Source: Acidobacteriota bacterium
Lineage (GTDB): Bacteria; Acidobacteriota; Vicinamibacteria; Vicinamibacterales; UBA2999
Direction of reading: 5' to 3'
Length of the DNA: 58,468 nucleotides
Assembly: GCA_016871195.1 (NCBI GenBank)
Contig: VFZN01000018.1
Location: 1-58,468 of the forward strand
The position numbers and the translations under genes were made by a program. The notes below the pieces were generated by a model. The model saw nothing but the letters and a program-made list of their open reading frames with translations. It did not search any database and was not told the origin of the DNA. Of the stretch, positions 3,163 through 14,154 are shown in pieces (the stretch's first letter is position 1; each line of letters starts with the position of its first letter).

Positions 3163-6100
3163 CTACGAGGCAAACTGCAGATACTCGCGCAGGCAGTCTC
3201 CGGGCATGGGCACCTCGAGCTTCCAGAGAATGCTCATGGGCCGGTTGCCCTCGTGCCTGACGTAGTGCACCGGTCCCAACACGGTGAACGCATCTTCCGT
3301 GGTGGCACGCACACACAGGACAAACTGCCAGCTGTTGGTCGCCTGCTCGACATAACGCCGCCCCGCCTCACCCTCAGCGTTCGTCTGGCTCTGTGACTGC
3401 CAGTGGAAGTGCGTGGCATCGACCGCATAGTCGTCGTAGCTGGTCGTGGGCGTGAAATGGCGATCCGACTTGTTGAGCGTCACGAACAGCAGTTCGAGCT
3501 TCCGGTCCTTGATGCGCAGGACGCCCTCACGCGATGGGGGTTTGGCGTGCGGATGCCAGTGCCCCACAGCCGTCAGAATCTCGCGACGCAGATAGGTGCG
3601 ATGCAAGGCGAGCGGCCACGGCCAGTGCCCGGGTACGGCAGGCGTGGTGCGTCCGACCCGATCGAGCAGGACGTCACACAGGCTCTCGGCATCTTCACGC
3701 ACGGCCGGGTGCGCCTCGAAGAGATCCCTGAGCTGTGCGCCCGTCATGAAGCGATTCGGCTGCTCGAACATGGCATAGGCCAGCATCTGCGTCCATGCAT
3801 CGCCGTGCACATGCACTTGGGGCACACTCCTCAGCCAGTCGCGATAGAACCGTAGGCGCTCGGGGTCGTCGAGGTGCAGCAGCATACGCAATCGACCGGC
3901 GAGGTCGGCTTCGTCCGAACCCGCCGGGGGCACGGACCACTCAACCGCGCGGCGCAGGGTGGACCACGAGCGGTCTCTGGTGAAGACCTCCCCGACATCG
4001 CGTCCCGATTCCTTGAGGAACTGAGCGAGCGACACCGGCGCTCCCGGCGCGCGACTCGCGACCGCCTTCAGCTCGTCCACCAGCCGCCTCAGGCCGCCCT
4101 GCAGTGATCGCCGGAGATTGTCGAGCACCTGCTGCTGCGAGACTCGGTCGAGCACCAGCTGGCAGCCACTGGGCAAGAGCGGAAACTGCTGCTCAACGGC
4201 CTCTCTCAAGACGCCACGCGGCAGTCCCGTCAGGGCCATCAGGGGAATCTCGAAGCGGAACTCCTGACGGTGCAGGCCGATGAAGTCGAGCACCAGGCAG
4301 CTCGACTTGTCGTCGCTAAGACGCAGCCCGCGGCCCAGCTGCTGCAGGAAGAGCGTGGCGCTTTCGGTGGGCCTGAGCAGCAGCAATGTGTCGACAAAGG
4401 GCAGGTCGACGCCCTCGTTGTAGAGGTCGCACGTGAAGATGATGTTCACCTCACGCGACGCCAGGTGTGCCCGCGCACGCCGACGCTCCTCGTCGCTGCT
4501 ATCCCCGTGCAGGCTCATGGAGGGCACGCCCCACCGATTGAAGGTGGCGGCCATAAAGTCGGCGTGTGCGACGCTGACGCAGAAGCCAATGGCACGGATG
4601 TCACGCACACTGGCGACCCGCTTCTGCAGCTGCGCAAGCACGAGAGCTGCGCGTGTGGTGTCGCCGGTGAAGACGCGATCGAGGCCGTCGACGGCATAGC
4701 GCCCTCGCGTGAATGCCACGTCGCGGAGGTCGACGCTGTCGTGAAGGCCGTGATACTCGAACGGCACCAGCAGCCGACGTTCCAGCGCCTCCCAGAGGCG
4801 GAGTTCCGCTGCGATGTGCCCATCAAAGTCATCAAGCAGCGACCGCCCATCCTGGCGTTCCGGCGTGGCGGTCAGGCCGACGAGCACGCGTGGACGCAGC
4901 TGTTCCATGACCAACCGATACGACTCGGCCGGCGCGTGGTGACACTCATCGACAATGACGTGATCCCAGTAGGAGGCACCGAGCCGCTCGATGAACGACC
5001 GTCGTCCGAAGCTCTGAATCGTCGCGAACAGATGGTCGACGTCCACGGGGTCACGACCCTCTGCCAGCACTTCCCCGAAGGAACCTTCACGCAGCACGTG
5101 CCGGAACGTCGTGCGCGCCTGCTCCAGCAGTTCCCTTCGATGTGCCAGCACCAGCAGACGAGGCAGTTGACGGTCCTGGCTGATGCGTCGCGCATAGTCA
5201 AACGCCGCGATCATGGTCTTGCCTGTCCCTGTGGCGGCGACGACCAGGTTGCGCGTGCGCCCATGCACTTCGCGCTCCGCCGCGAGGCGATCGAGGATCG
5301 CCTGCTGAAACGGATACGGCGCGAGCGTAAAGAACGTCAAGGCCCCATCCCCGCTGGCACCACCCGCCTCAGCGGAGAGCGCAGCCACAAGACGGGCCCG
5401 CTGCTCGGGGTGATCAGGGTGATACGCCTCAAACTCGAGGTCTGACCAGAGCGTATCGAACGTGCCGACAAACTTCTTGATGACATCCGGCAGATCACCG
5501 GACGACGCCTTGATCATCCACTCTTGTCCCTCGGTCAATGCGGCGCGGGACCAATTCGCTGAACCCACATAGGCCGTATCGAGACCCGAGTCACGCCGGA
5601 AGAGCCAAGCTTTGGCATGCAGGCGCGATCGACGGGCATCGAACGACACGCGCACCTCGACACCAGGAAGACGCGCCAGGCGATCGAGGGCGACGGCTTC
5701 AGTGGCGCCCATGTAGGTTGTGGTCAGCAGTCGCAGCGGACGCCCGCTCGCGGCGTAGCCTTCCAGCGCATCCACCAACGTCCGCACCCCTCCCATCGTC
5801 ACAAAGCTGACGATGGCGTCGATGCGATCGGCGGTGGCGATTTCACGCGCGAGTTCGTGTGCGAGATTGGGCTCGTGTCGTCCGCGAGTGAGCAGGGCGC
5901 TGCTCGAGAACGGCAACACGGTTCGAGGAGGCGTGTGCGTGCGATCTGCCGACAGCAATTCCTGTGGAGGAATCACGACGGCCACATCCTCGGGCACCGG
6001 ATGCGCCGCGCCTGACCTCAGGAACTCCAGTACCTGATTGGCCACATCAGCCTGCTGCGCCGGATTCCCATGGAGGCCCTGGAGGACACGCACCAGCTCC

Positions 6101-6240
6101 TGCGCTACGTGCCTGGCCAGCAGTCCTGGGGCTTCGTGACCGTCGAGGGACCTCAGCTCGGGATCGGCCGCCCCCTCCAGCGCCGTGCGGAGCCGCTGGG
6201 TGTAGAGTGCTTCATACAAGGGGCCGTACGGGCGGGGCAT
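3163..6240 (-). CDS. PLD-like nuclease / SF2 helicase / DUF3427 fusion protein
   Basis: 1025 aa from the ATG at 6240; an upstream TTG would overlap the divergent gene and is rejected. Domain order: a helical N-terminal segment (1-110); a phospholipase-D-like HKD domain with HAK at about 208-210 and GSANWS close behind (about 110-290); an SF2 helicase with Walker A ATGTGKT at 336-342, DECHH at 431-435, a GLTATPER motif and a C-terminal helicase lobe with QQLGRGLR; and a DUF3427-type C-terminal region (about 700-1025). This architecture (HKD nuclease plus SSL2-like helicase) is common in defence islands and resembles RadD-like helicases with a nuclease added. No restriction or toxin genes flank it. 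Probably a DNA-processing enzyme; a defence role is inferred. Confidence 0.9.
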   Translation of the reverse strand: MPRPYGPLYEALYTQRLRTALEGAADPELRSLDGHEAPGLLARHVAQELVRVLQGLHGNPAQQADVANQVLEFLRSGAAHPVPEDVAVVIPPQELLSADRTHTPPRTVLPFSSSALLTRGRHEPNLAHELAREIATADRIDAIVSFVTMGGVRTLVDALEGYAASGRPLRLLTTTYMGATEAVALDRLARLPGVEVRVSFDARRSRLHAKAWLFRRDSGLDTAYVGSANWSRAALTEGQEWMIKASSGDLPDVIKKFVGTFDTLWSDLEFEAYHPDHPEQRARLVAALSAEAGGASGDGALTFFTLAPYPFQQAILDRLAAEREVHGRTRNLVVAATGTGKTMIAAFDYARRISQDRQLPRLLVLAHRRELLEQARTTFRHVLREGSFGEVLAEGRDPVDVDHLFATIQSFGRRSFIERLGASYWDHVIVDECHHAPAESYRLVMEQLRPRVLVGLTATPERQDGRSLLDDFDGHIAAELRLWEALERRLLVPFEYHGLHDSVDLRDVAFTRGRYAVDGLDRVFTGDTTRAALVLAQLQKRVASVRDIRAIGFCVSVAHADFMAATFNRWGVPSMSLHGDSSDEERRRARAHLASREVNIIFTCDLYNEGVDLPFVDTLLLLRPTESATLFLQQLGRGLRLSDDKSSCLVLDFIGLHRQEFRFEIPLMALTGLPRGVLREAVEQQFPLLPSGCQLVLDRVSQQQVLDNLRRSLQGGLRRLVDELKAVASRAPGAPVSLAQFLKESGRDVGEVFTRDRSWSTLRRAVEWSVPPAGSDEADLAGRLRMLLHLDDPERLRFYRDWLRSVPQVHVHGDAWTQMLAYAMFEQPNRFMTGAQLRDLFEAHPAVREDAESLCDVLLDRVGRTTPAVPGHWPWPLALHRTYLRREILTAVGHWHPHAKPPSREGVLRIKDRKLELLFVTLNKSDRHFTPTTSYDDYAVDATHFHWQSQSQTNAEGEAGRRYVEQATNSWQFVLCVRATTEDAFTVLGPVHYVRHEGNRPMSILWKLEVPMPGDCLREYLQFAS

Positions 6241-6326
6241 CGTCAGAGGTGCGGGTGTCGCTGGGCCTGGTTGTATCACAGGCGGCCAGCGCAGCGGAGA
6301 CTCGAAATACTCACAGTGAGGAGCAC

Positions 6327-6629
6327 ATGGCAAAGGCAGTCATCATCAAGCATCCGCCGTCGGGCATGCTCAAGACGGGCTACGTCGGCTTCAGCTGGAC
6401 GTATCTGTTCTTCGGGCCGGTCGTGCCGCTGGTGCGCGGCGAAATCGGCGTGGGCGTGCTGCACTTCATCGCCACGCTGTTCACCGTGGGCATCTGGCAG
6501 CTGATCATGGCCTTCCTCTACAACCGACAGTACATGACCCGCATGCTCACCGAACGCGGCTTCGTGCTCGCCGATACGGCCGACCGCATGGCCCACGCAC
6601 GCCGCAAGCTGCGCATCGCCGAGCCCTAG
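6327..6629 (+). CDS. small membrane protein (HrgC/DUF2628-like)
   Basis: 100 aa. The ATG at 6327 has GAGGAG 5 nt upstream, which fixes the start. The N-terminus has KHPPSG and GFSWTYLFFGPVVPLVRG. Two hydrophobic segments follow (about residues 20-37 and 42-65), then a basic amphipathic tail ending at residue 100. The GFSWT-LFFG pattern is seen in short membrane proteins annotated HrgC or DUF2628. Function unknown. It is divergent from the PLD-helicase gene with an 86-bp gap, so the two may share a promoter region. Confidence 0.75.
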   Translation: MAKAVIIKHPPSGMLKTGYVGFSWTYLFFGPVVPLVRGEIGVGVLHFIATLFTVGIWQLIMAFLYNRQYMTRMLTERGFVLADTADRMAHARRKLRIAEP

Positions 6630-6783: not shown

Positions 6784-6996
6784 TCATCCACGACCCGACG
6801 CGCCCCGGCGCCACCGCCGCAGCTCGCGCCACTGGCGCACATGCAGCACCACCGAAGCCACACTCAGCAGCGGCCAGATGATGACAAACAGATAGATGTT
6901 GATCGCTTCGTAGGTGATGCCGAGATGCGCGGCCGCCACCCGCAGCACCTCGACACACCAGCGGAACGACTCGGTTATCCATAGAGGATCGCGCAT
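6784..6996 (-). CDS. small single-pass membrane protein, unknown
   Basis: 70 aa. The ATG at 6996 overlaps the TGA of the upstream Sel1-repeat gene (TGATG), and GGGGAG lies about 9 nt upstream. There is one strong transmembrane helix near residues 29-49, preceded by HLGITYEAINIYLF and followed by a highly basic tail (RQWRELRRWRRG) predicting a cytoplasmic C-terminus. The tight coupling with the Sel1-repeat gene suggests the two proteins work together. I do not recognise a characterised family. Confidence 0.7.
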   Translation of the reverse strand: MRDPLWITESFRWCVEVLRVAAAHLGITYEAINIYLFVIIWPLLSVASVVLHVRQWRELRRWRRGASGRG

Positions 6997-8186
6997 CAGA
7001 ATGCTCCCCCCGAGGTCTGCAGCTGCGTCGCCAGATCGCATACCCCCGCAAACACCCGTCTCGCATCGTCATCATCGTCGCCCGACAGCAGGTCGAGCAC
7101 ATCGGCGCGCTGCACGTCTGTCATCTCACGATGCAGCTGCTCGAGCCGCTCGAGCGCCTGGTTGCCAATGCCCCCATCACGCTCATCAGATGGTATTACC
7201 GCACGGCTCAGCCACATCGCAGCCTCGGACAGGCGACGAGGACCCTGGGCCTCATCCGCCAGCGTCCGTCCCACCTCCCACTGCGCCTGCTGATGCCCGC
7301 GGCGGGCCGCCGTCAGCATCCACCCGAGGCAGACATCGTGAGGGCGGTGCTCGTGGCACATGATCGACGTCAGCTGGAATGCCGCTTCGGCATCACCCGC
7401 ACTGGCCGCCTTCTGCAGCCAGCCCTCGGCCTCGATGCGCCCGGCCGCCGAGCCGGCCTGCCGCCACAGCGTGCTGCCCCACAGTCGCTGGGCCACAGGA
7501 AGCCCGAGCTCGGCCGCCCGACGCAGCCAGTGGGTTCGCCACGTCTCGTCGCTGGGGACATCGTCAGCCATCCCGCTCAATCGCCACAGGTCGTACAGCG
7601 ACCACGCATGGTCTCGCCTGGCCCCCACCGTCAACCACGCGTACGCCTCGGCTCGATGGGCCGCCGTCTGCGGCACTGCGGCGAGTTGCATCCGCGCCAG
7701 CATCAAGGCCGCGTCCGGCTGCTGGTTGACGGCCGCGCGATACAGATAGTCCACCGGGCGCGTTTCGCCCTCCGGCACGTCCTGGAACAGATGTTCCAGG
7801 GCCCACTGCGTCATCGCCTCCGGGTCTCCGAGATCGGCCGCCTTCTTCATCCAGGCCCAACCGGCCACGGCGTCAGATGGCACGACATGGCCCGCAAGAT
7901 ACGCCCGGGCGACCATCCGACACGCCGCCGGATGGTTGGTCTCGGCCAGCGTCTGACACACCTCGAGCGTCTGGGCATCGGTGGGGGTGGCATCCGCCTG
8001 CACCCGCTGCAGCACGAGCAACTGAGCCGGCTCCACGCCGGCCAGCGCCAGCGCCGTCATCCAGGCGCGCTCGCGCTCGATGGTCCACGGCACACCCGAC
8101 TGGCCATCAGCGTCGTGCGGTCCGTCCCCGGCATCGTTGCTTCCGCGCTCGTCCTCACCCGGCTGTTCATCGTCTTCGTGTCGCAT
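6996..8186 (-). CDS. Sel1-like (SLR/TPR) repeat protein
   Basis: 396 aa, no signal peptide. The first 35 residues are acidic and disordered. The remainder is a solenoid of Sel1-like units such as AWMKKAADLGDPEAM, HWLRRAAELGLPVAQ, GWLQKAASAGDAEAA and GWMLTAARRGHQQAQ. A DDDDD acidic run lies near the C-terminus. SLR proteins are scaffolds for protein complexes. The ATG at 8186 has GAGGG 4 nt upstream. It lies 82 bp downstream of the metK-like gene on the same strand and is coupled to the small membrane protein. Membership in the SAM-riboswitch operon is possible but not shown. Confidence 0.85.
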   Translation of the reverse strand: MRHEDDEQPGEDERGSNDAGDGPHDADGQSGVPWTIERERAWMTALALAGVEPAQLLVLQRVQADATPTDAQTLEVCQTLAETNHPAACRMVARAYLAGHVVPSDAVAGWAWMKKAADLGDPEAMTQWALEHLFQDVPEGETRPVDYLYRAAVNQQPDAALMLARMQLAAVPQTAAHRAEAYAWLTVGARRDHAWSLYDLWRLSGMADDVPSDETWRTHWLRRAAELGLPVAQRLWGSTLWRQAGSAAGRIEAEGWLQKAASAGDAEAAFQLTSIMCHEHRPHDVCLGWMLTAARRGHQQAQWEVGRTLADEAQGPRRLSEAAMWLSRAVIPSDERDGGIGNQALERLEQLHREMTDVQRADVLDLLSGDDDDDARRVFAGVCDLATQLQTSGGAF

Positions 8187-8268: not shown

Positions 8269-9378
8269 TCAGGTCAGAGCCTGCGGGGCTATCAGGTCAG
8301 GCACCGGGGCATTCCAGACACATGAGCGATCGAAGAAATGCTGCCCGCGGCCCAGCGAGAGTCGGCACTGGTCGCCCGTATAGCGCTGGCGCACGGCCGC
8401 GTGTGAAAACCAGTGTGCCGGCAACCGCTCGCCCCGGCGATCCATCTCGAAGACGATGTCGAGCGGTGTATCGATGTTGGGAGCGTAGGCCAGTACGACG
8501 CGGCACTCGAGCGCGCCGGTCGATACGGCATGCACCGCCGCCTGCCGTGCCGCATAGGCTGCCGCCCGGTCGATGTGGCTCAGATCCTTCCCCGCCAGCG
8601 CCCCGCCGCCAATCGCGACCCGCGGGCCGTAATAGTCGACCGCCAGCTTGCGCCCGGTCTGACCGTTGTCTCCGTCGCTGCCGCCGTTGATGAGCGGGCC
8701 GTTCGGATTGATCAGCAGCGTGACGTCACCGGCGCTGGCCAGCCATCGACGGTCTGCCACCCGCAGGGCCTCGTAGGCAGCTCGCACGTCTTCGCCGACG
8801 GCCGCGGCCATGTCGACAAAGCGCGTCTGCTCGCGCTGCTGCAGCGTCACCAGCACATGCTCGACCTGCCAGCCGTCACTGTGCTCGCGCAGGCGCACCA
8901 GCAGCTTGCCGTCCGGCCCTTCCCCTGCGAGTCGCCCCACGCGGCAGCTCTCGGCCAGTGCAGCGCCCAGCGTCTGCGCCAGGAAATGTTCGGGCGGCAG
9001 CCAGCCGACCTTCGCGTCATAGCCTGCCCAGCCCACGGTGATGCACTGGTCATTGACGCGGTCGGTCCAGGTGCGCGGATCACACCGTTCCTGGCACACG
9101 ACATCGGTCACCACATACCGCGTCGCATCAATCGCACTGCCCGGCACATAGCCCACCTCGAGCCCGACCTGACGCACGATCTCCGGCAGTGCGCACGCCA
9201 GTGGCGTGCGCGTGACGATGCCGCCGGTGAGGAAGATGTGGTCAGACCATGCACTGACTTCCACCTGGCAGTAGGCACGCGGGTCGGCCTCATAGCACGC
9301 CCGCACAATCGCGTCGGCCACCTGATCGCAGAAGCGATCGGGATGCCCCGGCAAGACCACTTCACTCATCCGAATCAT
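8269..9378 (-). CDS. metK: divergent S-adenosylmethionine synthetase (MetK-like)
   Basis: 369 aa; methionine adenosyltransferases make SAM from ATP and methionine. Visible family motifs: GHPDR at 11-15 (canonical GHPDK, so the Lys is Arg here), Glu40, VNDQCITVG at 108-116, PDGK near 155-158, the signature GGSDGDNGQTGRK at 232-244, the P-loop-like GGGALAGKD at 257-265, and RAAAYAARQAA. Most catalytic and metal residues are kept, so activity is likely. The sequence is nevertheless well diverged, slightly short (about 384 is usual) and lacks the usual FTSESV opening. The ATG overlaps the stop of the VWA gene (ATGA). It is the last gene of an operon led by a SAM-I riboswitch. Confidence 0.88.
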   Translation of the reverse strand: MIRMSEVVLPGHPDRFCDQVADAIVRACYEADPRAYCQVEVSAWSDHIFLTGGIVTRTPLACALPEIVRQVGLEVGYVPGSAIDATRYVVTDVVCQERCDPRTWTDRVNDQCITVGWAGYDAKVGWLPPEHFLAQTLGAALAESCRVGRLAGEGPDGKLLVRLREHSDGWQVEHVLVTLQQREQTRFVDMAAAVGEDVRAAYEALRVADRRWLASAGDVTLLINPNGPLINGGSDGDNGQTGRKLAVDYYGPRVAIGGGALAGKDLSHIDRAAAYAARQAAVHAVSTGALECRVVLAYAPNIDTPLDIVFEMDRRGERLPAHWFSHAAVRQRYTGDQCRLSLGRGQHFFDRSCVWNAPVPDLIAPQALT

Positions 9379-10712
9379 GACGGCACCTTTCCCAACTGCG
9401 TGTATGGAAGTCCGGCCCGCTCGACGGCGTCAGTGGAACCGTCGCGGGTCACCAGCACATGCAGCCGCGTGCGGCCAATGGCCCGCACCTGCGACCGCCT
9501 CAGGTCTTCGATGAAGCCATCCGTAATCACCACCGCGGCTCTCGGCTGCCGCTGTGCCACATGGTCGAGCACACAGGCCAGTGCGGTGCCTCCGGTCGTC
9601 GGCACCTCGAGCCGTCGACCGACCACGCGTGCCGGCTGCACGATCGTGCTGAAGGCCCAGAGCGGCCGGCTCACCAGATGCCCCAGCTGACCGAGCAGTG
9701 CCACCAGATGCGGAAGTTCGTCATCCATCGAGCCACTGGCGTCGAGGTACACCATGGCCCGGCCCACGGGCGTCGTCGCACTCGATGTCCACGCCGCCTC
9801 GGGCATGAACGGACTCCACAGCGACTTGAGTGCCGCGCGACGGTCGGAGAGCGACAGCAGGGGCAGCAGGGCCAGCCGCTCGCTCCGGTCGCCCGCGGGA
9901 TCGCAGTCTGGCTGCAGGTGTCGGCGCAGCACCTGTGCCGTCTCACGCCGCCAGCGACGGAGTGCCAGTGCGCTGGGCGTGATCACCTCGCGCATCGGCG
10001 CGGCACCTGCGCCCGCGATCGGTGCCGGCGAGCGGAAGACACGCGTCGATGCCAGTGACCGCCGCGACTGCGCCACGGCCTCGGCGAGCGCCGACGTCGC
10101 CTCGGCGCTGTGTGTGGTGGACGACGGGTCGTGATTCCCGAGCAGCCGGGGCGGGGTGCGCGGTGCCGTGAGGTCTTGTGCAATAGCGAGGATGTCTTCG
10201 GCGACAAGATCGCCGTCGTACAAGGCCAGCCACAGCTTCACCAGACGACGTTCGCGGGAGCGGGCCGGTGGCAGATTCCACCAGTTGACCCGGCCGTCTT
10301 CTTCGGCCTCGGTGGGTCGGCGCAGCAGCCGGCAGACGCCCGTGGCCTCGGCATAATAGCGGCTCATGAATCCGCTGGCGACCTCGCCCAGCGTGCGGTG
10401 AATGATGGCGTTGATGACGGCGTCGGTTGCGATGTTCTCCTGGGGGGTGACGGGCGTGCGCTGCTGGGTGTGGCGCAGCAGCACATGCAGGAACTCGTGC
10501 ATGATGACCGCGCGCACCTCGGCATCGCCACGGCAGTGCTGTGTGATGAAGGCCAGGTTCACCTTGAGCACCGGCCGGTCTTCGCACGTCACGGCCAGCG
10601 TCTCGACGCGGTCGGTGAATTCGACGTCGAGCAGCTTGAGCACGGCGCGGGCTGCCAGCGGGTTGTCGGTGATGAGTTCGCGGTAGATCGACAGAAATTC
10701 GTGACGTCTCAT
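9375..10712 (-). CDS. DUF2201 metallopeptidase-like / VWA domain protein
   Basis: 445 aa from the ATG at 10712, which overlaps the upstream stop as ATGA. The N-terminal half carries a zinc-metallopeptidase motif HEFLH at 72-76 followed by ATDAVINAII (DUF2201 type). The C-terminal third is a von Willebrand A-like domain with MIDAS residues DASGSM at 324-329, TTGGT near 372 and ITDGF near 396. Proteins of this design pair with MoxR AAA ATPases, as VWA subunits do in Mg- and Co-chelatases, and may deliver or insert metal or remodel partners. The neighbour upstream but one is such an AAA ATPase. No signal peptide; cytoplasmic. Confidence 0.88.
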   Translation of the reverse strand: MRRHEFLSIYRELITDNPLAARAVLKLLDVEFTDRVETLAVTCEDRPVLKVNLAFITQHCRGDAEVRAVIMHEFLHVLLRHTQQRTPVTPQENIATDAVINAIIHRTLGEVASGFMSRYYAEATGVCRLLRRPTEAEEDGRVNWWNLPPARSRERRLVKLWLALYDGDLVAEDILAIAQDLTAPRTPPRLLGNHDPSSTTHSAEATSALAEAVAQSRRSLASTRVFRSPAPIAGAGAAPMREVITPSALALRRWRRETAQVLRRHLQPDCDPAGDRSERLALLPLLSLSDRRAALKSLWSPFMPEAAWTSSATTPVGRAMVYLDASGSMDDELPHLVALLGQLGHLVSRPLWAFSTIVQPARVVGRRLEVPTTGGTALACVLDHVAQRQPRAAVVITDGFIEDLRRSQVRAIGRTRLHVLVTRDGSTDAVERAGLPYTQLGKVPS

Positions 10713-11191
10713 GCGTAGAACCCTCCGCCGTCGTAGAGCACCAGCGATCTCGACAGGCTCGTGCGTGTCCACAGCACCGGCCGTCGAGGGTCGTAGTAGG
10801 TCGACGTGCACAGGCCGAGCACCAACGCGAGATACAGCCCGTCGGCCGCACTGAGGGTGGCGGCCTCCACCGGCACGGGTGACCGATCGGGCTGACACAG
10901 GCACGGCCTCGGCGGCAGCACCACCCGGGCGCGTGCGTCTTGCTCGTCCGAACAGCCGCAGGCCCTGAGCCACTGCGCCACCCAGGTCAGCGGCGAGCGC
11001 CGACCGTAGGTCATCGAGACCCGCAGGATCCGGGGACACCGGATGGGTCCCTCGTCATGTCCCAGCACCGTCGCGCGTACCACTTCCGAACGGCTCCGGC
11101 TGCTCGGTCCCCCGGTGTTGCAGTCATAGAGCCACGGGGGCAGGCCGGCAGGGCCTGCCCCCTCAACGTGTCCCTCCAGGGCGGCGATCAC
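10709..11191 (-). CDS. hypothetical protein between MoxR ATPase and VWA protein
   Basis: 160 aa, unrecognised. The GTG start at 11191 overlaps the AAA gene's TGA (GTGA), and its own TGA overlaps the VWA gene's ATG (ATGA). It is therefore locked into the operon at both ends. It has several cysteines, including ACGC near residue 82 and PCLC near 95, which could bind a metal or form disulfides. It has no membrane segment or signal peptide, and the C-terminus is LVLYDGGGFYA. Codon bias matches its neighbours, supporting a real gene. It may be an operon-specific adaptor; this is inference. Confidence 0.75.
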   Translation of the reverse strand: MIAALEGHVEGAGPAGLPPWLYDCNTGGPSSRSRSEVVRATVLGHDEGPIRCPRILRVSMTYGRRSPLTWVAQWLRACGCSDEQDARARVVLPPRPCLCQPDRSPVPVEAATLSAADGLYLALVLGLCTSTYYDPRRPVLWTRTSLSRSLVLYDGGGFYA

Positions 11192-12609
11192 AGAGCCTCC
11201 CCGGTGCGGAATATCTCGATGCAGCGGTGCAGTTCAGCCTCGCCGGCTGACGCATCCCCGACATCAAGCGACTGCACGGCGCAGTGAAACAGCCACTGCT
11301 GCGCACGCAGCCGTCTCGCCCCGGTCAACCTCTCGAGCACCTGCGCAAACTCGGCCAGTCGCGGGTGCGGCTGTTGCGGACGTCCCGGTGCGTCGGACCA
11401 GCGCACCACCCCATCCACGTCGAGCACCGGCTGCGCCACGCGGCCCAGGTCGTGCACTGCTTCGGCGCCAATCGGCAGTCGGCCGTCGACCGCCGCCGGA
11501 AAGGCGGCCAGAGCAAACGCCGCTGCACGCGCCGGCGTTTCGTTCGCGAGAACTTGTTCAACGGCCAGCGTGCCCAGATCGGGGTCGGGGGCCTGCAGTA
11601 GCAGCCGTGCCTTGCCATCAAGCGTCGTCTCGTGCTGCACCCGATACAGCCAGCGGTCTCGGCCCGTCAGCACGGCATAGCCCCACGCCGCCTGATGGGC
11701 CGCGAGAATCCGCTCGGAAGGCACCTGTTCCCCCCACGCCGGCTGAGGAAGGCTGCACGTCAGCACCTGCAGGGCCACGGTCGCCGCATCCTGAGGCAGG
11801 GGCCGCAACTGCCGGCCGAAGCGCACGATGAGCGCCGCCAGCAGCGTGCGAGCCAGCAGGCGCGCCCGACGCGGTGACACGCGCACCCCCGCGGACGTCA
11901 GCACCGTGGTGACTTCGTCAGCGTAGCCGATGATTGAGTCGGGGCACTGCTCCACTTCTTCCCGGAAGATGGCCTGCCACTCTGCCACCTGCACACGCAG
12001 CGCGCCTCCATCGTTGGCCACGCGCCCCTCGCCCGCCGGATCGGCCACCGCACGACGGTCAGCCTCGCCGAGGTCGGTCCAGTCACCGACCGGCACCAGC
12101 AGCGCAAAACGATCAGCAAGCGCGGGATCGAGCGGTTCGACGCCGGCATAGCTGTCGACGGCCGTGTCATCAAGCACGCACGGATTCATCGCCGCCCAGC
12201 GATACCGCAACGACGGCAGCGCCACGCCCTGAATGCGGCGCTCATGCACGAGCGAGAACAGCCGGTTCTGGTGCTCGGGCTTGCAGCGATTGATTTCGTC
12301 AATCAGCACCGACTCGGCCGACCACACCGTCGCCGGCGTTTCGAGGAAGCGCACGGTCGTGCGTGCCTCGTCTGGATAGGGAAAGCCCACCAAATCATCG
12401 AACGACAGCAGGCTCGCGTTGTAGTGGCGATGGTTGAGCTGCAGCGCTTCGCTGATCGAGTTGAGCAGGAACGTCTTGCCCGTGCCGCTGCGGCCAATCA
12501 GCAGCAGCGGATCCCCTGTGACGAGGGCCGCGAGAATGACAGGTTCCTGGGCCCCGAAGCCATAGGCGCCCAGGCGTGCGAGTACAGACGGCGAATTGGA
12601 ATCAGACAC
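11188..12609 (-). CDS. MoxR-type AAA+ ATPase
   Basis: 473 aa. Walker A GRSGTGKT is at 39-46, Walker B VLIDEINR at 101-108, sensor-1 AAMNP at 139-143, and an arginine-finger region LADRFALLV near 160. The C-terminal 200 residues are unlike classic MoxR and may bind operon partners. The GTG at 12609 is fixed by an in-frame TAG two codons upstream and by GAGGT about 5 nt before it. MoxR ATPases act as chaperones with VWA proteins, and the VWA gene lies two genes downstream. It is the first gene after a SAM-I riboswitch leader. Confidence 0.92.
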   Translation of the reverse strand: MSDSNSPSVLARLGAYGFGAQEPVILAALVTGDPLLLIGRSGTGKTFLLNSISEALQLNHRHYNASLLSFDDLVGFPYPDEARTTVRFLETPATVWSAESVLIDEINRCKPEHQNRLFSLVHERRIQGVALPSLRYRWAAMNPCVLDDTAVDSYAGVEPLDPALADRFALLVPVGDWTDLGEADRRAVADPAGEGRVANDGGALRVQVAEWQAIFREEVEQCPDSIIGYADEVTTVLTSAGVRVSPRRARLLARTLLAALIVRFGRQLRPLPQDAATVALQVLTCSLPQPAWGEQVPSERILAAHQAAWGYAVLTGRDRWLYRVQHETTLDGKARLLLQAPDPDLGTLAVEQVLANETPARAAAFALAAFPAAVDGRLPIGAEAVHDLGRVAQPVLDVDGVVRWSDAPGRPQQPHPRLAEFAQVLERLTGARRLRAQQWLFHCAVQSLDVGDASAGEAELHRCIEIFRTGEAL

Positions 12610-12699
12610 GTTCTACCTCATCGATCGCAGCAGGACCACCCATCTGGCATGGGTTGGTGACCGTCGTCGGGCTGCGCCCCTCGGGTCGTCTGGATGAGA

Positions 12700-12723
12700 T
12701 CACGCACACACACGTGTGCGTGA
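12700..12723 (-). other. 10-bp inverted repeat in operon leader
   Basis: Perfect 10-nt arms TCACGCACAC / GTGTGCGTGA around a 4-nt spacer, 91 nt before the GTG of the AAA ATPase gene. In RNA this is a stable hairpin. No U-tract follows on the minus strand, so it is not a standard intrinsic terminator. It could be part of the riboswitch expression platform or a protein operator. Confidence 0.55.
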
Positions 12724-12746
12724 CAGTGCGACTGGAACAACTGCGG

Positions 12747-12769
12747 GTGCAGCAGGTGAACTACTGCAC
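12747..12769 (-). other. leader hairpin, candidate expression-platform element
   Basis: On the minus strand GTGCAGTAG and CTGCTGCAC form a 9-bp stem (one G-U) with loop TTCAC. It sits 43 nt downstream of the aptamer's closing P1 strand. No run of T follows. It is placed where an S-box expression platform would be; the mechanism is unresolved. Confidence 0.45.
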
Positions 12770-12812
12770 GAACTGCTTCGGGGCTATGTTGGGATGGCCG
12801 TCACTGGTGTCC

Positions 12813-12918
12813 TCGTATCTCTCCCGGCTGCCCGGGCGGAAGTGAGCACCTTGCCTGATGGCTCGGGCAGGTTGCTGTGGCGTCGACGGGTCCGGTCCCT
12901 CAACCACTCTTGATGCGA
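12813..12918 (-). ncRNA. SAM-I (S-box) riboswitch aptamer
   Basis: Read 5'-3' on the minus strand, the core elements appear in order: ATCAAGAG then GG and GAGGGA; CCCGTCGACGCC; GCAACC; GGTGC; TTCC; AGAGAT. These match the conserved S-box pattern. P1: TCGCATC (12918-12912) with GATACGA (12819-12813), one mismatch. P3: ACCTGCC with GGCAAGGT. P4: CCCGG, loop GCAG, CCGGG, followed by the AGAGAT junction. The presence of P4 argues for SAM-I rather than SAM-IV. A strong promoter puts the transcript start about 15 nt upstream, and the downstream operon ends in a SAM synthetase gene, the expected kind of target. No covariance search was run. Confidence 0.93.
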
Positions 12919-12939
12919 TCGCACAACGGCGATGGATGG

Positions 12940-12968
12940 ATTATGATGAAATCGAACGACGCTGTCAA
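12940..12968 (-). promoter_or_regulatory. sigma70 promoter of the SAM-riboswitch operon
   Basis: On the minus strand TTGACA (12968-12963), a 17-bp spacer, then CATAAT (12945-12940). The predicted transcript start is near 12933. This gives a leader of about 320 nt that contains the complete S-box aptamer. Confidence 0.8.
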
Positions 12969-12974
12969 GCATCG

Positions 12975-13009
12975 CGGCAGCCGCACGCAGGGGATGCGTG
13001 CAGCTGCCG
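12975..13009 (-). terminator. hairpin after FAH-family gene
   Basis: CGGCAGC/GCTGCCG arms enclose CACGCA/TGCGTG arms with a 5-nt loop, giving a 13-bp interrupted stem. It begins 15 nt after the FAH-family stop and ends just before the next promoter's -35. There is no T-tract, so it may act as an insulating or Rho-assisted terminator. Confidence 0.6.
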
Positions 13010-13023
13010 TGAGGGGGACTGCG

Positions 13024-14154
13024 TTATTGCTTGCGGTAGGTGGCCACCGGAGGCAGGCGCGCCCCTGTGCCGCCCTGAGGGGCTGACTCGCCCATCACCG
13101 GCATGCGCAGCGTGCCGATGCCGTCGATGCTGGCCTCGAGCACTTCACCGGGCTTGAGGAACCGGCTGCCGGTGCGGGTCTGCGCCGAGCCGGCCGCCGT
13201 ACCGCCCGAGGTGCCGTTGTTGATCACATCGCCCGGATAGAGCGTGACGATCGACGAGCCGTACTCGATGAGTTCCCACAGCGAGTGAATCATGTCGCCG
13301 GCGCGTGCTTCCTGCAGCGTCGTGCCGCCCACACTGAGCGTCTGCCTGAGGTTCTTCATCGGATCGCCGTAGAACTCGGCCGGCACGATCCACGGCCCCT
13401 GGGGCGCGAACGTGTCGTGGCCCTTGCCGACGAACCAGTCTGAACCCGAGCCATATCCCCCGGGAGGACGGCCCCCGCGGTCAGACACGTCGATCGTCAC
13501 CATGTAGCCGAACACATAGTTCGGAGCACTGTTGGCGTCGACATACTTCGCCGTGCGTCCGATCACTGCCCCCAGTTCCACTTCCCAGTCCGTCCGATCG
13601 CGGCCGTACGGAATGACGATGTTCTCGCCATTGCCGATGACGGCACCGCGCCCCGGCTTGAGGAAGAGATATGGCACCCCGCGCTGCTCGCGGCGCAGCC
13701 GGCGGGCGGCGGCCTGCTCTTCGGCCGTGCCGGCCTCGTTCACGTGGCTGTAGAAGTTCACGGCCGCGTTGAGGATCTTGCTGGGATACAGAATCGGCGC
13801 CAGCGTCTTCACCTTGGCGAGGTCATGCACATAGGCCGGCCGCGCCGCCCCGAGCCTGTCGCCGGCCACCAGATAGTTGGTGATGGCGACCAGACGCGCG
13901 CGCACGCCGCTGTCATAGCGCTCGATGAGATCAATCATGTCGCGCGGCGCTGCAAGCGCCCCGCCGTTCGGCACCGCCTTGTGCGCCGCTCCGATGTCGA
14001 CCACGAACCGGTCGCGCAGCACCAGACCCACCGTCTGCGTGCCGCCAATCTCATACGTCCCGACCTTGTAGGGTTCCGCTGCCTTGGCTGTGCCCTGCGC
14101 CATGGCGGGGGCTGCCATCGCTGCCACGATCACCATCACCGCAAACAATCGCAT
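13024..14154 (-). CDS. secreted fumarylacetoacetate hydrolase family protein
   Basis: 376 aa. The ATG at 14154 has a perfect AGGAGG 5 nt upstream. The first 19 residues form a signal peptide ending APAMAQ. The FAH catalytic core follows: ILYPSKILNAAVNFYSHVNE, the metal-binding ExE in DWEVELGAVIG, TIDVSDRGGR with a conserved Asp, and GDVINNGTSGGTAAG near the end. FAH-family enzymes hydrolyse C-C bonds or decarboxylate dicarbonyl acids and are usually cytoplasmic, so the export signal is noteworthy. Single-gene unit with a hairpin just after the stop. Confidence 0.88.
   Translation of the reverse strand: MRLFAVMVIVAAMAAPAMAQGTAKAAEPYKVGTYEIGGTQTVGLVLRDRFVVDIGAAHKAVPNGGALAAPRDMIDLIERYDSGVRARLVAITNYLVAGDRLGAARPAYVHDLAKVKTLAPILYPSKILNAAVNFYSHVNEAGTAEEQAAARRLRREQRGVPYLFLKPGRGAVIGNGENIVIPYGRDRTDWEVELGAVIGRTAKYVDANSAPNYVFGYMVTIDVSDRGGRPPGGYGSGSDWFVGKGHDTFAPQGPWIVPAEFYGDPMKNLRQTLSVGGTTLQEARAGDMIHSLWELIEYGSSIVTLYPGDVINNGTSGGTAAGSAQTRTGSRFLKPGEVLEASIDGIGTLRMPVMGESAPQGGTGARLPPVATYRKQ

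Follow-up and report, generated by a model that had tools for sequence, protein, structure and literature searches.

The window, i.e., the whole stretch of DNA analyzed, comprises 58,468 nucleotides of contig VFZN01000018.1 from an Acidobacteriota bacterium (assembly GCA_016871195.1). Four genes on the minus strand lie in close succession behind a leader with two S-box elements. They encode a MoxR-like AAA+ ATPase (AAA; 11188..12609; Pfam AAA_5/AAA_3), a protein of unknown function (UNK; 10709..11191) that overlaps the end of the AAA gene by 4 nt and is conserved from about residue 24, a protein with a DUF2201_N metallopeptidase-like domain (HExxH) and a VWA domain with MIDAS (VWA; 9375..10712), and MetK2 (8269..9378), a divergent MAT-family protein with an altered methionine pocket. 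A preliminary description of the locus had listed a MoxR AAA ATPase, an unknown protein, a VWA metallopeptidase-like protein and a SAM synthetase. This gene list was borne out, with the qualification that the last protein, while belonging to the MetK family, is a divergent paralogue. MetK2 is followed after 82 nt by a gene for a Sel1-repeat protein on the same strand (6996..8186, minus strand). Its membership in the operon is uncertain, and it was not prominent among the neighbor families common to the loci; the all-against-all comparison of neighbors was cluttered by antisense ORFs, so that other shared neighbors may have been missed. Also on the minus strand, at 3163-6333, lies a gene for a PLD-nuclease/helicase protein with a strong match to type IV methyl-directed restriction (PADLOC mREase_IV, E 5.8e-233). 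Relatives or fragments of this gene occur near the operon in loci L044, L079 and L088.

A search of the whole window with cmscan and Rfam 15 gave three matches over the gathering threshold. Two are tRNA genes (40138-40066 and 39909-39836, minus strand). The third is RF00162 at 12919-12812 on the minus strand, which covers the complete model (1-108) with 67.3 bits against a gathering threshold of 44.4 (E 1.5e-13). By its covariance score this element (aptamer 1, 12812..12919, with P1, P2, P3 and P4) is a genuine member of the SAM-I family; binding of SAM and control of the genes are inferred. The preliminary description had proposed a SAM-I riboswitch here from six S-box core strings, to be given up if no significant covariance match were found. 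The proposal survived this test, and all six strings are present in the order given. A promoter of the form TTGACA-17-CATAAT had been placed about 15 nt before the aptamer; such a sigma-70-like site exists (12940..12968, minus strand; 11/12 matches, one found against 0.1 expected in shuffled sequences), at a distance of 20 nt. No platform for aptamer 1 is evident. An intrinsic terminator in this role was ruled out, as no terminator-like site was found in 12400-13100. One other SAM-I riboswitch of the same genome is over threshold (G000:C4:173309). It precedes a gene for homoserine O-succinyltransferase (PF04204, E 5.6e-56), which is a classic kind of SAM-I target. The housekeeping metK gene (G000:C1:176154–177254, 492.2 bits) is not among the SAM-I places of the genome.

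The P4-less S-box variant and the ribosome binding site

A second S-box element, absent from the preliminary description, lies downstream of aptamer 1. It came from an RF00162 search of the genome, and then of the leader alone. This element (aptamer 2, 12615..12700, minus strand) falls short of the gathering threshold with 32.4 bits (E 1.6e-5). It consists of P1, P2 with an internal loop, and P3; the P4 helix is missing, and the alignment leaves no room for it. Judged on four sequences only, P1, P2 with its internal loop, and P3 with CAACC...GGUG meet the core of the S-box/SAM-IV superfamily. Aptamer 2 is weak on its own, but three relatives (L042, L039 and L040) have 86-nt homologues as the sole Rfam SAM matches in their leaders (40.3, 36.9 and 35.3 bits, all under the RF00162 gathering threshold). 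The window copy and these three homologues align without gaps. A structure of 21 pairs is satisfied in 84/84 cells with three compensatory changes, although for so few sequences 11 of 500 shuffles were equally good. A covariance model (R1) was built from the four copies and run on 162 genomes of the order, with matches in 14 of these at E up to 0.001. Scores of more than 100 bits were confined to the four building copies, all before the AAA/VWA/MetK2 operon. The next match (G045:C463:6939-7048, locus L149; 48.2 bits with R1 and 35.2 bits with RF00162) is near the P4-less form and lies at the beginning of an apparent canonical metK gene, which falls into the canonical clade of the MAT tree. The remaining matches have 26–34 bits, and several coincide with SAM-I places already known. 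A further P4-less copy, truncated by the contig end, was recognized in L038 (39.6 bits with R1). That aptamer 2 senses SAM is inferred only. If SAM binding holds, aptamer 2 would represent a minimal S-box RNA from nature, with which the contribution of P4 could be studied.

A putative Shine-Dalgarno sequence, GAGG (12616..12619, minus strand), forms part of the 3' side of the aptamer 2 P1 helix and precedes the GTG start codon of the AAA gene by 6 nt. Folding of the region, called for in the preliminary description, gave a divided result. GAGG pairs inside P1 when 12605-12702 is folded alone; in the minimum-free-energy fold of the whole leader neither P1 forms, 12897-12873 pairs with 12605-12632, and GAGG pairs with 12888-12890. 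In the latter fold, for which ligand and pseudoknots were not computed, strands of aptamer 1 pair with the ribosome site and with the 3' end of aptamer 2. Since the ribosome site is paired there, it may not be free in the window copy even without ligand. The pairing of 12873-12897 with 12605-12632 could couple the two aptamers directly or be an artefact of ligand-free folding. Between the aptamers, the minimum-free-energy fold contains a 10-bp hairpin without a U-run (12700..12723, minus strand), a possible platform or spacer. The folding energies of the aptamers are ordinary (z -1.4 and -1.0 for the two of the window, 0.4 for L042 and -0.2 for L039), and for the L039 copy the best fold does not form P1. 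Folding energy was dropped as evidence, being not significant.

Distribution of the operon and of SAM elements in its leaders

Within the order, 11 of 162 genomes were found to hold relatives of the VWA protein. Two peptide patterns were scanned against genome contigs and yielded 45 loci with a VWA relative, three of which (L087, L092 and L093) are distant or doubtful and stand outside all leader counts. According to the depositors' titles, the loci belong to Acidobacteria, alpha-, beta- and gammaproteobacteria, Myxococcota, Elusimicrobia, Latescibacterota, Bacteroidota, Spirochaetes, Gemmatimonadetes, Verrucomicrobia and others. All 45 carry MAG titles; those of L054 (Acidimicrobiia) and L058 (Bordetella parapertussis) look doubtful as names of metagenome bins. 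Eight of the 45 (L049–L054, L078 and L091) repeat genomes of the order search, i.e., those of L037–L046. No relatives were found in viral contigs with two peptide patterns, and none on plasmids; on this basis carriage by a mobile element was ruled out.

The order AAA–UNK–VWA–MetK2 is kept, with some exceptions, where the contigs allow. No MetK2 was detected in L075, in L090 or in L077, whose contig stops 0.5 kb further on; in L056 the match covers no more than the first 20 residues of MetK2, and UNK was undetected in L079. The distant or doubtful loci L087, L092 and L093 are also excepted. With starts chosen by script, the median gap between genes is −4 nt, and gaps do not exceed 10 nt in 37/42, 42/43 and 31/35 pairs. 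The distances of the four proteins correlate over 31 loci (0.77–0.84), which was not counted as evidence because the row of L090 held a canonical MetK. By eye, the leaders of L062, L070, L073, L067 and L076 seem to contain short open frames after the riboswitch region and ahead of the AAA gene, possibly coding for small extra proteins of the module.

Forty short leader loci of 400–1111 nt were searched with Rfam at E up to 0.1. A SAM-family match was found in 24 of the 40, reaching the gathering threshold in 17, and the classes are SAM-I, SAM-I/IV and SAM-II. A pattern for the SAM-II core (GATTT..CTTGC..GCTAA plus a looser form), composed after viewing the same leaders, occurs in 16 of 41 regions (mean in shuffles 0.01; none on the opposite strands) and adds seven loci to the 24 of Rfam. 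Once the window and L038 are added, a SAM-class element is present on the coding strand in 33 of the 42 leaders that could be tested. This count includes L095, a near-copy of L094, without which it becomes 32/41. The elements are SAM-I, SAM-I/IV, SAM-II and the P4-less variant; some are in tandem, and many are under gathering. No SAM element was found in the other nine leaders (L097, L102, L106, L109, L114, L115, L119, L122 and L128). Three loci without a leader on the contig (L043, L055 and L066) were not testable, the genome of L055 being counted through L089. Among the tandems, SAM-II (28–33 bits, under gathering) is followed by SAM-I/IV in L094, L095, L096 and L108, and SAM-I/IV by a SAM-II found by pattern in L113. 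Double SAM-II elements, some by pattern or under gathering, occur in L101, L107 and L126, a double SAM-I/IV in L121, and two SAM-I about 700 nt apart in L132.

The position of these classes within the 45 carrier genomes was also recorded. RF01725 gave 25 matches, of which 17 lie up to 1 kb upstream of the AAA gene on the same strand (18 up to 2.5 kb); for RF00521 the corresponding figures are 11 of 26 (14 up to 2.5 kb). Two AAA genes in these counts belong to the second operon type described below. RF00162 matched in 6 of 35 genomes of more distant carriers, with only one place at the operon (31.4 bits, under gathering). The SAM-I aptamer ends at the start codon in L037 and L046, and the SAM-II tail GCTAAA enters the ribosome site in L044, L058, L061, L074 and L088; in other leaders, e.g., L057, L067 and L084, the element is located further upstream. 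Elements that abut or contain the ribosome site argue for translational OFF control in many copies, the direction being inferred from the known classes.

A search of the phylum (396 genomes) gave a VWA match in 14 genomes and eight new loci, five of them with an AAA start. Four of these five leaders carry a SAM-class element, one under gathering and one found by pattern: L165 has SAM-I/IV with 54.8 bits, L170 reaches 46.7 bits and L168 35.4 bits (under gathering), and L167 contains the SAM-II core pattern. No SAM element was found in the leader of L166, and no MetK in the stretch of L168. Only L165 is of the window type; the others are nearer to a second, diverged operon type, which stands beside the first in genomes G165 and G194 with identities of 43% for AAA, 28–30% for VWA and 33% for MetK. 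SAM-II matches precede the second type in L147 (36.7 and 31.1 bits) and L148 (31.3 bits; gathering threshold 36). A further SAM-II match in L148 (1465-1542, 39.0 bits) is located about 120 nt before an HD_4 (HD-domain) gene (1660-2433) that adjoins the second-type operon.

On a tree of the AAA proteins with 43 rows, the riboswitch class changes at least seven times over 28 single-class leaders, some of them classed by pattern. The SAM-I locus L046 and the SAM-II locus L044 are supported sisters. L082 (a near-copy of L057), L087, L093 and frames of less than 350 residues (L055, L066) were omitted from the tree, and L092 and L043 were included without label. From these changes, SAM control looks to have been recruited repeatedly to the operon. 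Aptamer 1, the conserved operon and its recurrent link to SAM riboswitch families are results of the computation itself. The preliminary description had tied a MoxR-type AAA/VWA/MetK operon to SAM levels, and the leader counts (33/42, and 4/5 among the later loci) support this tie by comparison. SAM control of the operon is the best-supported step of the interpretation and is considered well supported at the level of sequence comparison.

Encoded proteins and putative role

Walker A was found in 41 of 42 AAA homologues, the one miss (L043) being truncated, and Walker B, with a loose pattern, in 42/42. With both motifs and an adjoining VWA gene with MIDAS, the criteria for a MoxR-type AAA+ protein with a VWA partner are met. 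In Pfam, the VWA protein matches DUF2201_N (26.8 bits, cut-off 23.2); its DUF2201 VWA domain is under cut-off. The HExxH motif is present in 38/38 VWA proteins, from which peptidase activity can be inferred at most. Residues H77, E78 and H81 as well as D329, S331 and S333 of the MIDAS are invariant in 37/37 sequences, two of them of the second type. The AF2 model of the VWA protein has a pLDDT of 78 and a pTM of 0.52. NorQD complexes are its top PDB matches with Foldseek (E 3e-4 to 6e-4); as the match covers just a portion of the protein, the TM by query is 0.25. The term chelatase-like, used in the preliminary description, holds to the extent that the model partly resembles NorQD, a metal-insertion AAA/VWA pair; this is a resemblance only. 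An activase role of AAA/VWA would follow from the family (NorQD, RavA/ViaA; available part of PMC3893208), with ATP-driven remodelling of a client inferred from likeness in structure only. UNK had no match in Pfam, NCBIfam or PADLOC at E up to 0.001. Forty-one UNK sequences were aligned, and the AF2 model has a pLDDT of 88. No known fold was recognized for this model: comparison with the PDB gave no Foldseek match at E up to 0.001 (best 3.8) and none with VIA-align.

MetK2 of the window misses the curated metK cut-off (TIGR01034) with 161 bits against 309.4, which marks it as a divergent paralogue. All three MAT Pfam domains are present, the central one under cut-off. In a quick tree with some long branches, 34 MetK2 sequences form one clade (support 99) apart from seven canonical and three second-type proteins. 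The residues for ATP and triphosphate are kept: H14, D16, E42, D118, D163, K165, D238, R244 and K245 in 34/34, K265 and D271 in 33/33, and K17 in 33/34, with Arg in the window. The contacts to the methionine main chain are changed. E55 is retained in 1/34, mostly replaced by Gly, and Q98 in 2/34, with variable replacements; K269 is retained in 0/33 (His in 32, Asn in one), and Pro stands at I302 in 33/33. The alignment near E55 is uncertain by one residue in the window protein. E55, Q98, D238 and K269 are taken by us to correspond to human Glu70, Gln113, Asp258 and Lys289. As far as the sources were available, Glu70, Gln113 and Asp258 of human MAT hold the methionine main chain and Lys289 is catalytic (PMC7271947, PMC6850014). 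In the accessible part of PMC6850014, the human mutant Gln113Ala keeps about 76% of SAM production, so that loss of Q98 alone means little, and Lys289Asn is among the mutants with less SAM and unaffected phosphatase activity. Canonical metK genes over the cut-off are present in 39 of the 45 carrier genomes. In G118 (97% complete) the search detected MetK2 but no canonical metK, for which an assembly gap is a possible cause. An extra canonical metK gene lies up to 1.5 kb upstream of AAA in G168, G176, G178 and G195 (L061 4886-5818, L069 4708-5625, L071 3641-4639 and L090 4099-5040), preceded in G168 by a SAM-II match of 29.9 bits, under gathering.

The window is interpreted as carrying one copy of a four-gene module (AAA, UNK, HExxH-VWA, MetK2) that is widespread and whose expression would be lowered by SAM. 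Its leader would hold two S-box elements in series, a standard SAM-I riboswitch near the promoter and a compact P4-less aptamer with the Shine-Dalgarno sequence in its P1. With SAM plentiful, aptamer 2 is predicted to close P1 and hide the ribosome site. When SAM falls, the site would open, and the four genes would be made together, coupled by their 4-nt overlaps. AAA and VWA could then act as an ATP-driven activase for a dedicated client, like NorQ/NorD or CbbQ/CbbO, the latter presumably a comparable MoxR-VWA pair. MetK2 would be the likeliest client and UNK an adaptor, and the likely output under SAM shortage would be the production, or a repaired production capacity, of SAM or a SAM-like sulfonium. 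The OFF direction and the NorQD-like action are inferred by analogy with known families; MetK2 as client, a role that comes from operon logic, and the reaction of MetK2 are inferred only. The absence or fragmentary state of MetK2 in L056, L075, L077 and L090 speaks against this mechanism. Taken as a whole, i.e., an operon induced by low SAM with a NorQD-like motor and MetK2 as its client, we hold it with somewhat better than even confidence.

As MetK2 keeps the ATP-cleaving half of the active site with altered E55, Q98 and K269, it might adenosylate a substrate other than free methionine. The proposal in its full form, that MetK2 makes a sulfonium other than SAM from another thioether or from methionine that is not free, together with the ATP-driven AAA/VWA/UNK and only at low SAM, and that lineages wired it independently via SAM-I, SAM-I/IV, SAM-II and the P4-less variant, is put forward tentatively. 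The outcome may be SAM, another sulfonium or regulation of MetK.

Alternatively, MetK2 could be a backup SAM synthetase made at low SAM, with AAA/VWA as an accessory for folding or metal loading, a possibility that appears doubtful. The conserved ATP, triphosphate and metal residues and induction at low SAM would be consistent with such a backup, and a second canonical metK near the operon in four genomes adds to it. The altered pocket weighs on both sides, since the activity left in human Gln113Ala (available part of PMC6850014) implies that loss of Q98 alone need not block the reaction, whereas E55 is lost in 33/34 sequences together with Q98 in 32/34, I302 is Pro throughout and K269 is His or Asn, the human Lys289Asn enzyme making less SAM. 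With a canonical metK in 39/45 genomes, there is no obvious need for a second synthetase.

A stress or defence system triggered by SAM depletion, e.g., by SAM-degrading enzymes of phages, is regarded as unlikely. The four proteins have no PADLOC match except a weak one of 36 residues to mad8 in AAA, no obvious effector is found among the core genes, and no relative was found in viral contigs (two peptide patterns) or plasmids, although the patchy presence (11/162 genomes of the order, 14/396 of the phylum) and the type IV restriction-like gene, with its relatives or fragments near three other copies, would fit a defence role.

It is also improbable that MetK2 and AAA/VWA make nothing and regulate or disassemble the housekeeping MetK. 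The active sites of MAT are built from both subunits of the dimer (accessible part of PMC7271947), which would allow mixed dimers with a paralogue whose pocket is altered; HExxH in all 38 VWA proteins and a canonical metK that sometimes adjoins the operon point the same way. Against these points, the conserved catalytic residues and the separate clade suggest retained chemistry, and induction of an inhibitor at low SAM would be counterproductive. An ordinary S-box leader standing by chance, or in isolation, before unrelated genes, as the normal SAM-I riboswitch before the homoserine O-succinyltransferase gene might suggest, can be practically discarded, because several SAM riboswitch classes recur before the same operon in other genomes.

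Comparison with known systems

Neither the operon nor its control by SAM was found to be described in the open-licence literature, without supplements and most subscription papers; absence from print is not thereby demonstrated. The SAM-I class and tandem SAM riboswitches are already known. Riboswitches hint at the purpose of a gene set, and here several SAM-sensing designs point at one operon, so its function should belong to the supply or use of SAM. Aptamer 1 reaches the threshold of SAM-I (S box, RF00162) over the full model; what differs is its place before AAA/VWA/MetK2, in series with a sub-threshold P4-less relative. SAM-I/IV and SAM-IV are further close classes. In the alignments, the SAM-I/IV consensus (RF01725) is likewise without P4 between P3 and P1 and has a P3 of the form CCAACC...GGUGG. 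The hairpin of RF01725 directly 3' of P1 is absent in aptamer 2, where the start codon follows within about 10 nt. SAM-I/IV variants without the P2 internal loop are described in the available part of PMC2864571, whereas aptamer 2 keeps this loop. The accessible text of PMC9481103 reports 164 double SAM-I and 44 tandem SAM-II riboswitches, as well as seven tandems of SAM-II followed by SAM-I/IV and two in the reverse order. The genes are unnamed in that text and some of the tandems may be the same loci; in the present collection mixed tandems precede one operon. That text has no separate entry for SAM-I with a P4-less variant behind it, a combination that could hide among the double SAM-I.

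MetK2 shares three MAT domains and the ATP and triphosphate residues with MetK (TIGR01034), and differs by its score under the cut-off, its changed methionine main-chain contacts and its separate clade. A MAT-family clade is singled out here that may act on a substrate other than methionine. The MoxR-vWA ternary conflict systems (eLife 2020, PMC7159879) likewise have a MoxR AAA and a vWA protein in one operon; the terms MetK, DUF2201 and riboswitch are absent from the main text of that paper. The MoxR domain of these systems, Pfam bpMoxR, is matched by the second-type AAA proteins, and not by the window AAA at E up to 0.001.

With SAM riboswitches in its leaders, an anonymous MoxR/VWA machine becomes a system with a named effector, which gives a clue to the role of DUF2201-type VWA proteins. 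NorQ/NorD, CbbQ/CbbO and RavA/ViaA likewise combine a MoxR-type AAA with a VWA partner in one operon. The present operon differs from them in that the VWA protein carries an HExxH domain, that UNK, a protein without known relatives, is added, and that the operon, with SAM riboswitches in front, also encodes a MAT paralogue as the candidate client.
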